Program-made: the position numbers and the translations under genes
Shown here: one piece after another, positions 14,582 to 18,119 of the stretch
Layout: every line of letters begins with the position of its first letter
Numbering within the stretch: position 1 is the stretch's first letter
DNA from: Exiguobacterium sp.
GTDB lineage: Bacteria; Bacillota; Bacilli; Exiguobacteriales; Exiguobacteriaceae
DNA length: 36,746 nucleotides
Direction: 5' to 3'
Assembly (NCBI RefSeq): GCF_020832205.1
Contig: NZ_JAFIFD010000054.1
Coordinates: forward strand, 1 to 36,746
Notes under the pieces: model-generated
Databases searched by the model: none
What the model was told of the DNA's origin: nothing
The model's input: the letters and a program-made list of their open reading frames with translations, nothing else

Positions 14582-14597
14582 TTTTCGCTTAGGTAAG

Positions 14598-14669
14598 TGA
14601 CCCGTACGGGATTCGAACCCGTGTTACCGCCGTGAAAGGGCGGTGTCTTAACCGCTTGACCAACGGGCC
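14598..14669 (-). tRNA. tRNA-Glu (UUC)
   Basis: A complete cloverleaf on the minus strand: acceptor GGCCCGT/ACGGGTC, D-arm TGGTCAAGCGGTTAAGACA, anticodon stem CCGCC/GGCGG with loop CTTTCAC (anticodon TTC at 14634-14636), and T-arm with GGTTCGAATCC. The sequence closely matches B. subtilis tRNA-Glu. After the discriminator A, the gene continues CTT, so CCA is not encoded, unlike the neighbouring tRNA-Met. Confidence 0.96.
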
Positions 14670-14678
14670 TAAATAAAA

Positions 14679-14755
14679 TGGTAGCGGCGGAGGGAGTCGA
14701 ACCCACGACCTCACGGGTATGAACCGTACGCTCTAGCCAGCTGAGCTACACCGCC
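14679..14755 (-). tRNA. tRNA-Met (CAU)
   Basis: A complete cloverleaf on the minus strand: acceptor GGCGGTG paired with CGCCGCT-like 3' arm, D-arm TAGCTCAGCTGGCTAGAGCG, anticodon loop TTCATAC (CAT at 14719-14721), T-arm GGGTTCGACTCC, ending in encoded CCA. It is most likely an elongator tRNA-Met, by position matching trnSL-Met1 of B. subtilis and because it lacks the three G-C pairs of initiator anticodon stems. A tRNA-Ile(CAU) modified by TilS is the alternative to exclude. Confidence 0.93.
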
Positions 14756-14899: not shown

Positions 14900-17302
14900 T
14901 TATGCTTCTGACGGAATACCGCGATATTTCTTTTTCCAAGCAATCCGGAAATAACCCCATAAAAGCCCGAGACAAGCGAGGGAGACGAGCGTGAGATAAA
15001 TCGTCGCCGTCTGTAAATATTGCGCCCCGTCCCCGGAAAGGATTTCTTTATAACCGGCCACCGTATACGTCATCGGAAGCAACGCGTTGAACGGTTGAAG
15101 CGCCCGCGGAATCAATTCTAACGGGAACGTTCCTGCCGACGTCGTCAGCTGTAAGATGAGCAAGACGATCGCCACGAAACGCCCCGGATTCCCGAGCACC
15201 GTTACGAGCAGTTGGACGATCACTAAGAACGTGATACTCGTCAACCAACTGAAACCGAAGAACTGAAGTGGCGCATCGACTTCTAACCCGAGCAAGTAGA
15301 TCATCGAGACGTCCAACACGAGCGCTTGAACGAACCCGATGACAATCAAGACACCCGATTTCGAGGCGAGCCAAGACGAGCTTCGTTTCGGTTTGCCTGC
15401 CGGGTCGTAAAGCGGATAGACGATTGAGAGCAAGAGTGCACCGACGAAAAGGCCGAGCGACATGAAGTAAGGGGCGAATCCAGTCCCATAGTTCGGCACT
15501 TCATGAATCGAATCATTTACAAGCGTGACTGGACCCGCCATCATGTCGACGTTATCGTCTCCGAGATCGATGGACGCTTGATCGGCACCTTCGGCTAACG
15601 CGTCACGTAGCGTTGTACTCCCCGACTCGAGTTCAGACAATCCATCTTTCAGTTCACTGCTTCCTGACGCGATCGTCTTCCCGCCATCAGCGAGTTGGAT
15701 CGCCCCGTCAGATAGCGAGCGCGTTCCGTCCTCTGCGTCTTTCGCGCCGGCAGCGAGCTTCTTGCTTCCGTCCGTCAGCGCACCGGTCGCTTCTGTCAAA
15801 CGCGTACTGCCTGAGGCCAGTTCAGATGTCCCGTCTCTCAACTGTCCTGCTCCAGCGTTCAACATTGTACTCGCTGATGCGAGCTCACTCGAACTCGCCG
15901 CAGCTGTTTTAGCCCCTTGCTCGAGTTGGGCCGAACCAGTAGCGAGCGCCATAGCCCCATCAGCTAACTCGGATTGTCCTTCCTTCAGCGTTGCCAAACC
16001 TGAAGCAAGTTCATTCGCCCCCGCTTCTGCTTTCGTTAAGCCGGCATCTAGCGCGGTTTGTCCGTCTCGGACACGTGTCGCACCCATCGTGAGTTCATCA
16101 AATCCGGCCGCTGTGGCCTGTTTACCTTCCTCAAGTCGACTTACTACTTGTTGAAGCACTTCTGGAGGAATCGGTTGACCCGATTGGGCCAGCGCCGAAA
16201 GTTGTTGCATCAATTCGTCTTGATTGGCGAGTAGCGTCGTTTTCATTTGTCCGATGCCGTCAATCAATTCGGTCTCTCCTGACAAGAGCGCGGCGTTCCC
16301 TTGTTTGGCGTTCGTCATCCCGTTCGCCAATTCATTCGAGCCGGTGACTAGCTGTTCACTGCCAGACTTCGCTTGATTGATTCCCGCCGCCAAGTCTTGT
16401 ATCCCGTCGTCAAGCGACTTTGTGCCTGCATGCAGTTCCTCAAGTTTTGAGGCGAACGTCGTCGTTCCTTGGACGAGTTGATTCGTCCCGTCCAAGAGAG
16501 CGGACGCGCCGTCCTCCACGCGGCGAGCCCCATCTGACAGGGCCGCACTTCCTTCATACACTTGTTGACTACCGTCAGCCAAGTCGGTCGTACCCGTTGC
16601 GAGTTGAGACACTCCTTCACCTAGACGACCCGCTCCGTCTGCAAGTTCCTGCTGTTTCGAAGCGAGAAGCGCAGCGCCATCAGCAAGTTGGGTCGCACCA
16701 TTTTTTGCCGTCTCGGAACCGTCAGCGAGAAGTGAGGCGCCGTCTGCCGCTTCCCCAAGTCCTGATGCCGCTTCATCGATGCCATCCCGCAACGCACTGA
16801 CGTACTGCTTCGCCACTTCCGTCGACAGTTCAGCTTTCACTTGTTCCATCGCCGAACCACCGATTTGAGCGGCCAAAAAGTTATAAGACTCGTTCGCGAT
16901 GTACTTGAGCTCGAGCGGCTCCGGTTTGTCATCGAGTGCAGTCGTCGCTTTCTCCGAAAAGTCTTGTGGGATTTCAATGGCCATATAGTAGTCATGGTCA
17001 TTTAAGCCCAGCTCTGCTTCTTTTTTTGTCGTCTCAATAAATTCGAACGCTTCCGAAGCAAGCAATTTATCGACGAGCTCGTCTCCGATGGCGAGCGACT
17101 CCCCTTCGAACGTGGCCCCGCGATCTTCATTGACGATGGCGACCGGTAAATCCTTCATTTGTCCGTACGGATCCCAGAACGCCCATAAAAACATTCCCGC
17201 ATACATGAGCGGCACGAGCACGACCGCGAGAATCGGGATCCATACCCGCGGATCTTTCCCAACGCTTCGCCACTCGGCTTTCCATAGTTTCCATCCATTC
17301 AT
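14900..17302 (-). CDS. yhgE: YhgE/Pip-family membrane protein with glycine-marked heptad repeats
   Basis: An 800-residue membrane protein of the YhgE/Pip (phage infection protein) family, related to ABC-2-type permease membrane domains; the transported or bound substrate is unknown. One membrane helix lies near 21-41 and five near 609-629, 649-672, 685-704, 708-726 and 765-785. Between them is a large extracytoplasmic part: a family-specific region (LPVAIVNEDRGA at 52-63, DYYMAIEIPQDFS) and then 26 heptads (173-354) and 25 heptads (392-566), nearly all with Gly at the second place and Leu/Ala/Val at the sixth. A 37-residue break with GQPIPPEV separates the two blocks. The start MNGWKLWKAEW is family-typical. 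The gene is not part of the B. subtilis order here and sits alone between yabR and the tRNAs. Confidence 0.85.
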   Translation of the reverse strand: MNGWKLWKAEWRSVGKDPRVWIPILAVVLVPLMYAGMFLWAFWDPYGQMKDLPVAIVNEDRGATFEGESLAIGDELVDKLLASEAFEFIETTKKEAELGLNDHDYYMAIEIPQDFSEKATTALDDKPEPLELKYIANESYNFLAAQIGGSAMEQVKAELSTEVAKQYVSALRDGIDEAASGLGEAADGASLLADGSETAKNGATQLADGAALLASKQQELADGAGRLGEGVSQLATGTTDLADGSQQVYEGSAALSDGARRVEDGASALLDGTNQLVQGTTTFASKLEELHAGTKSLDDGIQDLAAGINQAKSGSEQLVTGSNELANGMTNAKQGNAALLSGETELIDGIGQMKTTLLANQDELMQQLSALAQSGQPIPPEVLQQVVSRLEEGKQATAAGFDELTMGATRVRDGQTALDAGLTKAEAGANELASGLATLKEGQSELADGAMALATGSAQLEQGAKTAAASSSELASASTMLNAGAGQLRDGTSELASGSTRLTEATGALTDGSKKLAAGAKDAEDGTRSLSDGAIQLADGGKTIASGSSELKDGLSELESGSTTLRDALAEGADQASIDLGDDNVDMMAGPVTLVNDSIHEVPNYGTGFAPYFMSLGLFVGALLLSIVYPLYDPAGKPKRSSSWLASKSGVLIVIGFVQALVLDVSMIYLLGLEVDAPLQFFGFSWLTSITFLVIVQLLVTVLGNPGRFVAIVLLILQLTTSAGTFPLELIPRALQPFNALLPMTYTVAGYKEILSGDGAQYLQTATIYLTLVSLACLGLLWGYFRIAWKKKYRGIPSEA
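15605..16786 (-). repeat. Coding heptad-repeat tract in yhgE
   Basis: About 51 consecutive 21-bp coding units in two blocks (16241-16786 and 15605-16129) separated by 111 bp. Units follow the form [DSAETNQ]-G-x-x-x-[LAV]-x, for example DGAALLA, DGTNQLV and SGSSELK. Register is kept exactly within each block. A few units have lost the Gly (SKQQELA, SKLEELH, SASTMLN, EATGALT). DNA identity between units is low, so this is an old protein-level repeat rather than a recent tandem duplication. Confidence 0.85.
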
Positions 17303-17418: not shown

Positions 17419-17450
17419 AAAAAAAGCCACAGACGTCAATCGTCTGTGGC
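17419..17450 (-). terminator. yabR terminator
   Basis: Perfect 10-bp stem GCCACAGACG/CGTCTGTGGC (17426-17435 with 17441-17450), 5-nt loop, then TTTTTTT on the minus strand. It lies 63 nt after the yabR stop. Confidence 0.93.
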
Positions 17451-17513
17451 CATGCATGTCGCATATGAAAAAGTGTGTATCGTTACGAGTAGAAGCTTGT
17501 GGTTTACGAAGGG

Positions 17514-18053
17514 TTACCCGCGCTTGGCTCCACGCCCACCGCGTTTCGAATCAGTCTGACGCTTCAACGTTGTGAGACGCTCATCGCTATCTTTCAAGAA
17601 CTTGCTCATCAACGTGTCAAACGTTTCAGGCTCACGACGTACTTCACGACGTCCGCCGCCACCGCGTGGACCGCCGCCACCACGTGGACCGCCACCGCCG
17701 CCGCGTGGACCTTGTCCTGGGCCGCCTGGACGTGGACCTTGCCCTGGGCCACCTGGACGCGGGCCGCGAGGAGCGAAACGCTCGCCTGCTGGACGCTCAG
17801 GACGTTCGCTCACAGGACGATCGACCGCTTTTTTGATGGACAACCCGATTTTGCCATCGTTCTCGACGTTCAATACTTTGACTGTGACTTCCTGACCGAC
17901 CGTGAGGACTTCATTGATGTCTTTGACGTAAGAATCCGCCACTTCACTGATGTGCACCAAACCTGTCTTTCCGTTTGGAAGTTCTACGAACGCTCCGAAA
18001 TGCGTAATCCCTGTAACCTTACCTTGTACCTTGCTTCCTACTTCAATTGACAT
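17514..18053 (-). CDS. yabR: S1-domain RNA-binding protein YabR with Gly/Pro/Arg-rich insert
   Basis: A 179-residue cytoplasmic protein with one S1 RNA-binding domain (1-75: GSKVQGKVTGITHFGAFVEL, GLVHISEVADSYVKDI) and a conserved C-terminal tail (144-179: FDTLMSKFLKDSDERL, KRGGRGAKRG). B. subtilis YabR, as I remember it, is about 128 residues. The extra length here is a low-complexity insert at about 92-136: two copies of RPGGPGQGP and three PRGGGG units. The ATG at 18053 follows AAAGGAG; an upstream in-frame extension has no match. It has its own promoter and terminator. A role in translation or RNA handling is inferred from the domain only. Confidence 0.9.
   Translation of the reverse strand: MSIEVGSKVQGKVTGITHFGAFVELPNGKTGLVHISEVADSYVKDINEVLTVGQEVTVKVLNVENDGKIGLSIKKAVDRPVSERPERPAGERFAPRGPRPGGPGQGPRPGGPGQGPRGGGGGPRGGGGPRGGGGRREVRREPETFDTLMSKFLKDSDERLTTLKRQTDSKRGGRGAKRG
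17649..17765 (-). repeat. Low-complexity Gly/Pro/Arg coding repeat in yabR
   Basis: Two tandem 27-bp units encoding RPGGPGQGP, followed by three PRGGGG units of 18-21 bp. The near-identical codon use (GGA/GGC CCT/CCC CGT) makes this stretch prone to length change by slippage or recombination. Confidence 0.8.
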
Positions 18054-18090
18054 AAAATAATGTACTCCTTTTTTTGATTGATTCCCTACA

Positions 18091-18119
18091 ATTATACGAG
18101 TCGTTTCGTCAACGGTCAA
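18091..18119 (-). promoter_or_regulatory. yabR promoter
   Basis: Minus strand TTGACC (18114-18119), 17-bp spacer, TATAAT (18091-18096). It starts 9 bp after the divIC stop and gives yabR a strong independent promoter. Confidence 0.85.

Follow-up and report, generated by a model that had tools for sequence, protein, structure and literature searches.

In contig NZ_JAFIFD010000054.1 of Exiguobacterium sp. (assembly GCF_020832205.1), analysed over positions 1 to 36,746 (36,746 nucleotides, called the window in the following), a yhgE/pip gene codes for a protein with two long blocks of glycine-marked heptads, which are nearly equal in length and lie on either side of a proline-containing hinge. 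This raises the question of why two blocks of one chain should be so closely matched, and which path the chain takes between its two membrane-associated ends. A first-pass annotation had proposed two long helices folded back as an antiparallel hairpin. The analysis presented here makes it quite probable that the two blocks are the arms of a stalk, which lead away from the membrane and return to it, forming one rod with the hinge at its far end. As the stalk is tied to the membrane domain at either end, the arms would have to cover the same distance, and a change of length in one arm is therefore predicted to be paired with a change in the other. Such paired changes among relatives, read from aligned sequences, are the strongest evidence for this path, more than the structure models; we infer with good support that the out-and-back arms are helical and that the rod measures about 27-35 nm.

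The blocks were found as first annotated, with 26 heptads over residues 173-354 and 25 over residues 392-566, both unbroken in register, and with the 37-residue separator containing GQPIPPEV between them. Gly occupies its place in 24 of 26 and 22 of 25 heptads; the exceptions are Lys at 216 and 286 in arm 1 and S470, A477 and A505 in arm 2. Leu, Ala or Val follows four residues past the Gly place in 24/26 heptads of arm 1 and 23/25 of arm 2. When each block was shuffled 2000 times at constant composition and scored for the best in-phase Gly count, means of 6.2 and 6.1 were obtained against the observed 24 and 22, and the maximum was 11. The Gly place had a mean pairwise identity of 98-99% among 13 Exiguobacterium proteins, the Leu place one of 92-94% and the three most variable places one of 37-56%; the near-invariant Gly place would fit an unusually tight helix packing. 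No fresh tandem DNA array was identified in the heptad blocks by Tandem Repeats Finder (score 30), the one 19-bp row in the gene lying outside them. The repeat has been catalogued already, as the NCBIfam model TIGR03057 carries the title 'X-X-X-Leu-X-X-Gly heptad repeat', and the window protein is an ordinary member of the known YhgE/Pip family.

With the protein's own peptides, 12 relatives were retrieved from genome contigs, all 12 from Exiguobacterium. Eight of these are 800 residues long and four are 870 residues long. The 70 extra residues of the long forms are shared equally between the arms, 35 in each, with none elsewhere, and a form lengthened in a single arm was not found among the 13 Exiguobacterium proteins. 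The same two length classes were present in 13 further genomes of the genus (loci L044-L056), some of them repeated species. The possible cut points of the inserts range from about 199 to 247 in arm 1 and mostly from 507 to 557 in arm 2; mirrored about the hinge (i + j = 753), the arm 1 zone falls at about 506-554 and overlaps the arm 2 zone.

For the wider family, 124 proteins were segmented by a Viterbi procedure, and 115 distinct proteins remained after removal of 9 with an identical stalk region. From the family Exiguobacteriaceae, each of the 26 other genomes contributed one copy to the sample, and the rest was spread over other genera, with high scores preferred; the 111 relatives L044-L154 of the sample were taken among the best matches listed. 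The hinge was defined as the largest gap between arrays, irrespective of its position. Exactly two arrays were identified in 97 of the 115 proteins, with 8-36 heptads in arm 1 and 7-31 in arm 2, and the arm spans were correlated with a Spearman coefficient of 0.92 and a Pearson coefficient of 0.89. The heptad difference between the arms (n1-n2) fell within -1 to 3 in 96/115, and its mean was 2.3 heptads compared to 5.7 in 5000 permutations (minimum 4.7). The apex lies within 5% of the stalk midpoint in 111/115, which restates the matching of the arms. On a tree built from the conserved ends alone, 114 contrasts of arm 1 against arm 2 gave r 0.83; among the 63 contrasts with a change, the sign agreed in 46, disagreed in 5 and was zero for one arm in 12, so that 46 of 51 sign-informative contrasts agreed. 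The matching was stable at three of four segmentation settings. The heptad counts across homologues that had been suggested as a check thus showed matched block lengths.

Outside this sample, 11 named plasmid-borne relatives (8 non-Bacilli and 3 Lactobacillales) were segmented. Five Deinococcota proteins carry 30/28, 20/19, 23/23, 27/25 and 28/27 heptads around the middle of three gaps, which was chosen as hinge by eye and differed from the largest gap in 4/5. Each of their arms has an internal break; counted from the base, it comes after 10-12 heptads in arm 1 and after 7-8 in arm 2. Counts of 14/15 were obtained for Roseburia (after a three-heptad array in the membrane domain, 689-710, had been excluded as spurious), 10/8 for Rhodococcus, 15/11 for Enterococcus gilvus, 21/17 for Latilactobacillus and 13/9 for Leuconostoc. 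The match of the arms is looser in some relatives outside the main sample. As observations apart, the Deinococcota breaks (L162, L164, L165, L166 and L171) stand at roughly mirrored heights, like a knee in the rod, TetR or MarR regulator genes adjoin yhgE in these bacteria, and in Leuconostoc and Lactiplantibacillus YhgE/Pip genes are also borne by plasmids of small size (8-31 kb).

The changes themselves were followed in 31 pairs of relatives joined by non-overlapping tree paths, with at least 45% identity in the conserved ends and differing segmented spans; together with one extra pair, 32 pairs were aligned, and the net gaps were counted for each arm. Neither arm showed a net change of a heptad in 21 pairs. 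An arm had changed by at least one heptad in the other 11, and in 7 of these the change was equal in both arms to within one residue: +14/+14 twice, +35/+35, +21/+21, +28/+28, +15/+14, and +7/+7 in the extra pair. The two +14/+14 pairs belong to one genus and are perhaps one event; the equal changes span at least five lineages. Length changes between close pairs were thus found to be paired. The paired insertions also tend to lie at like heights, with a mean offset of 22.5 residues compared to 54.9 expected (P 0.0125, 6 events), where gap placement is ambiguous inside the repeats and one event depends on others through the tree. In a literature search that covered the matching papers in part and excluded most subscription papers, no earlier account of heptad changes paired between the arms of YhgE/Pip proteins was found.

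The predicted structure points in the same direction. AlphaFold2, run with 13 sequences, gave helices at residues 138-258, 262-373, 380-490 and 495-576 for the window protein, the two long arms meeting in a loop at 374-379, so that at low overall confidence the model did not refute the hairpin first proposed, which is supported more by the paired evolution of arm length than by the models. The predicted local distance difference test (pLDDT) was mostly 70-87 along the stalk with dips to the 50s, and 64 overall. In the model of an 870-residue long form (pLDDT 56) the loop lies at 409-414, which is the predicted shift of +35. At 1.5 Å per residue, 26 heptads measure about 270 Å and the whole first helical arm (138-373) about 350 Å; the earlier estimate of about 250 Å was too low. 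The kinks at 259-261 and 491-494 were examined as a possible conserved trait, and this reading was abandoned since the long-form model has them at 236-240 and 580-585, at non-homologous residues; in both models the two kinks nearly mirror each other across the hinge. Structural matches were chiefly generic long-helix proteins in Foldseek and in VIA-align. The VIA-align rows also include hairpins: a chemoreceptor aligned over residues 254-496 (240 residues, 4.0 Å, Z 11.2, a score below the value of about 13 under which the tool itself warns that matches can be common among long helices), PrgA over 254-493 (239 residues, 5.3 Å) and 7x8v over 172-577 (176 residues, 3.7 Å). The EsaA entry 7JQE was absent from the best 50 rows of both searches, which excludes nothing.

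Several results weigh against the proposed path or limit how closely it can be drawn. Four distant pairs (identity 0.41-0.51) changed unequally, by 13/24, -30/-5, 91/46 and 54/28, both arms still changing in the same direction. By segmented spans 19 pairs had changed, of which 11 had the same sign and 10 agreed within a heptad, and the span differences of these pairs gave a Spearman coefficient of 0.41 (P 0.085); pairwise alignments showed that the span differences were mostly shifted boundaries between array and tip and not true indels. In the family sample n1-n2 lay outside -1 to 3 in 19/115, the contrast slope of n2 on n1 was 0.70 and not 1, and arm 1 spans became shorter where hinges became longer (contrast r -0.54), an effect owed in part to the ill-defined boundary between the two. 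The fourth segmentation setting (open 0.05, exit 0.005) lowered the Pearson coefficient to 0.43, with a Spearman coefficient of 0.84, and Tsukamurella has 13/7 heptads. The predicted template modelling scores are low (0.43 for the 800-residue and 0.38 for the 870-residue protein), the membrane domain is unreliable with a pLDDT mostly below or near 50, and secondary helix kinks fall at differing residues in the two models. The paper in which the lactococcal relative YjaE was predicted describes its own Pip dimer prediction as of low confidence and odd geometry (PMC12474359). An ABC (ATP-binding cassette) ATPase gene, as might accompany an ABC-2-like protein, was not found beside yhgE in the window, both neighbours being otherwise typed. 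Finally, from matched lengths it follows that both arms cover one distance; that their pairing takes place inside a single chain does not follow.

This last point bears on an alternative in which the arms run out and back but each finds its partner in the corresponding arm of a second molecule, giving two parallel coiled coils or a swapped four-helix bundle. Length matching and paired indels would follow equally from any out-and-back path, and dimers have been described for relatives, YjaE making contacts over the entire length of its rod (PMC12474359, PMC10765036). On the other side, the one-chain model aligns with known structures across both arms (172-577 and 254-496); a one-chain prediction cannot test pairing in a dimer. 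Pairing between like arms is considered unlikely.

Equal arms might also arise without any physical constraint, as copies homogenised by gene conversion, and an identical motif does occur in both arms. The inserts of the long forms speak against this. In windows in or beside the inserts of the four long forms, the best match in the own arm exceeded that in the other arm in 51 of 52, with one tie, a comparison confined to Exiguobacterium; the 35-residue insert windows were identical to their own arm elsewhere at 18-30/35 positions and to the other arm at 15-20/35. Each insert therefore looks like a local tandem duplication. At the best five-heptad offset the arm 1 copy agreed at 21-25/28 positions and the arm 2 copy at the weaker 17-22/28, the arm 2 copies being more diverged. 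Homogenisation is regarded as very unlikely.

Glycine-rich heptads might instead be wound into a beta-roll as in ice-binding proteins or trimeric autotransporters, which would make the rod much shorter. The LbR_Ice_bind profile (PF21300) matched residues 300-349 with 27.9 bits, below its cut-off of 30 (E 2.5e-6), and phmmer against the PDB identified no clear relative, its best match being the repetitive adhesin BpaC (E 0.015). However, AlphaFold2 predicted helix almost throughout in both models, and in the arrays AELMQKR make up a large share (51%), V/I/Y/F/W/T a small one (14%), and proline is scarce. Family-wide, proline accounts for 127 of 36,742 array residues (0.3%) compared to 4.4% outside the stalk, a depletion that is partly circular as the Viterbi segmentation itself penalises proline. 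A turn of a beta-roll takes two heptads, and indels of odd heptad number (+7, +21, +35) suit a seven-residue helical period better, so that a roll is scarcely to be expected. Least probable of all is membership in a type VII secretion system, with the protein as its EsaA-type component: the match to the EsaA N-terminus model TIGR03929 (70.1 bits) is what a related family would give and stays below the cut-off of 122, YukC/EssB (PF10140) had 0 matches in the 57-contig genome with a positive control in B. subtilis, and the EssC match reached 125 bits against a cut-off of 778.

For the preferred path, out from the membrane and back, the following arrangement is proposed. The gene encodes what is probably a stand-alone YhgE/Pip protein; its N- and C-terminal ABC-2-like domains flank the two-block stalk, and the blocks would form helical arms with the proline hinge outermost. 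By analogy with relatives, the protein would be a homodimer whose rod crosses the peptidoglycan and leaves the apex exposed. Because a single membrane domain holds both ends, lengthening only one arm would make the rod buckle or displace its packing, and this would be why the arms are kept equal in length. As the most likely native role, a wall-spanning element on an ABC-2-like membrane domain, showing its apex outside the wall for export or contact, might be envisaged. More speculatively, the stalks may be evolvable rulers, whose reach across the cell wall is tuned, lineage by lineage, by gain or loss of mirror-image heptad pairs at like heights, and whose apex could evolve freely into a large variable tip; this is a tentative view, doubtful at present. 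If it were true, stalk length should track wall thickness, and the heptad count should predict the distance of a phage receptor or contact site from the membrane. The paired changes offer a sequence-only test of an architecture hitherto backed by predictions and by structures of related ectodomains, and heptads per arm are a countable trait that can be set against wall thickness and phage range.

To our knowledge no phage of the window protein is known; none was searched for. The function of this protein class had been called unsettled in the first-pass annotation, which holds for the native role but not for the family as a whole, as some YhgE/Pip relatives are known phage receptors (PMC4999554, PMC12474359). 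In enterococcal PIP a variable region, residues 342-494 of 888, sets phage tropism (PMC4999554). With family medians of 175 for the arm start and 236 for the C-terminal tail, an 888-residue member would have its midpoint at 413.5, compared to 418 for the middle of the variable region; by stalk symmetry, the enterococcal tropism region would thus sit at the apex. YjaE was predicted as a 360 Å dimeric rod folded on itself, with the tip likely outside and the phage-binding tip, residues 309-447, at the predicted far end (PMC12474359). An arms race with phages, which a variable apex might betray, was considered and is unsupported, since among the 13 Exiguobacterium proteins the apex is barely less conserved (0.65) than the arms (0.70 and 0.68). 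Large tips of 197-258 apex residues between matched arms were seen in five relatives (L074, L132, L142, L144 and L168); a Pfam scan of nine relatives, including four of these five (not L168), gave only sub-cut-off matches in the tips.

The coordinates of the features are collected in the table below.

Features of the yhgE/pip gene and its upstream interval in the window
Feature	Residues	Window position	Strand	Basis or remark
yhgE/pip gene	800 aa	14900..17302	-	open reading frame; TIGR03061, TIGR03062, TIGR03057 over cut-off
N-terminal YhgE/Pip domain (first membrane helix and extracytoplasmic base)	10-171	16790..17275	-	TIGR03061, PF12698
Arm 1, 26 Gly heptads	173-354	16241..16786	-	Gly 24/26
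Arm 1 zone of +35 insert	203-247 (extremes 199-247)	16562..16696	-	long-form comparison
Hinge/apex, 37 residues	355-391	16130..16240	-	predicted loop 374-379 inside
GQPIPPEV proline turn	375-382	16157..16180	-	
Arm 2, 25 Gly heptads	392-566	15605..16129	-	Gly 22/25
Arm 2 zone of +35 insert	515-556 (extremes 500-567)	15635..15760	-	long-form comparison
C-terminal YhgE/Pip domain (membrane part)	586-786	14945..15547	-	TIGR03062, PF01061
Terminator-like hairpin, interval between S1-domain gene and yhgE		17425..17451	-	consensus scan only

The N-terminal model TIGR03061 matched with 195.1 bits (cut-off 96.15, E 5.7e-58), the C-terminal model TIGR03062 with 210.7 bits (cut-off 102.2, E 1.7e-62), and the heptad model TIGR03057 with 126.1 bits (cut-off 18.6) in 15 stretches. 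Two ABC-2 permease profiles also exceeded their cut-offs, PF12698 (ABC2_membrane_3) at residues 26-158 with 68.6 against 31.6 bits and PF01061 (ABC2_membrane) at residues 641-752 with 30.8 against 26.9 bits. The five membrane helices of the C-terminal part are the count reported for the relatives YueB and YjaE, in PMC12474359 among others. A single YhgE/Pip match was identified in the source genome, a 57-contig assembly, and a scan of viral contigs revealed no relative.

In the window, yhgE is flanked by a tilS-like gene, from which genes for tRNA-Met and tRNA-Glu (14597-14755) separate it, and by an S1-domain gene. The latter, upstream (17514-18119), codes for a protein with a long Gly/Pro/Arg-rich C-terminal tail in which RPGGPGQGP is repeated. 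B. subtilis carries spoIIE in the corresponding stretch, so that yhgE may occupy the place of a lost sporulation gene. Because a terminator-like hairpin lies upstream, after the S1-domain gene, yhgE probably stands alone as its own transcription unit; the consensus scan behind this hairpin yielded 9 such sites in the window compared to 3.4 expected. A Walker A motif paired with an ABC signature was absent near yhgE in L013-L042 (flanks up to 1500 bases), in 9 Exiguobacterium loci, in L161 and in L169, by a scan that overlooks truncated genes, the annotated L161 neighbour among them. There, in Rhodococcus erythropolis (L161, 1-2444), the YhgE/Pip gene starts 3 bases past a gene with the annotation of an ATP-binding cassette protein; this, if the annotation is right, would suggest an ABC exporter pair; no Pfam match was obtained on the 150 available residues of this neighbour.

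Compared to known systems, the window protein shares its terminal domains and its heptad repeat, all over curated cut-offs, with lactococcal Pip/YjaE and enterococcal PIP, and a folded-back rod was predicted for YjaE already in 2025 (PMC12474359). It differs at the apex, which is a short 37-residue proline hinge here and a tip or variable region of the extent given above in YjaE and PIP. From type VIIb secretion, the EsaA ectodomain is an elongated dimer (PMC10765036), like the rod predicted here, and EsaA ectodomains are described as long enough to span the wall (PMC9600267, PMC10765036); the difference to EsaA/YueB lies in the EsaA model, which remains under its cut-off here, and in YukC, which was not found in the genome. 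Both membrane parts resemble ABC-2 permeases by profile, whereas in YhgE a stalk is inserted between the first membrane helix and the remainder, and the flanking genes are those of a tilS-like and an S1-domain protein. Chemoreceptor hairpins are not known to carry a Gly at each heptad, and the signalling domain of methyl-accepting chemotaxis proteins was absent among the 7 Pfam matches (E up to 1) of the window protein. The chemoreceptors are an unrelated family and their hairpin is cytoplasmic; it is a coiled coil whose length varies by symmetric seven-residue indels (PMC5907407), and it is in this length rule alone that the two systems are alike.

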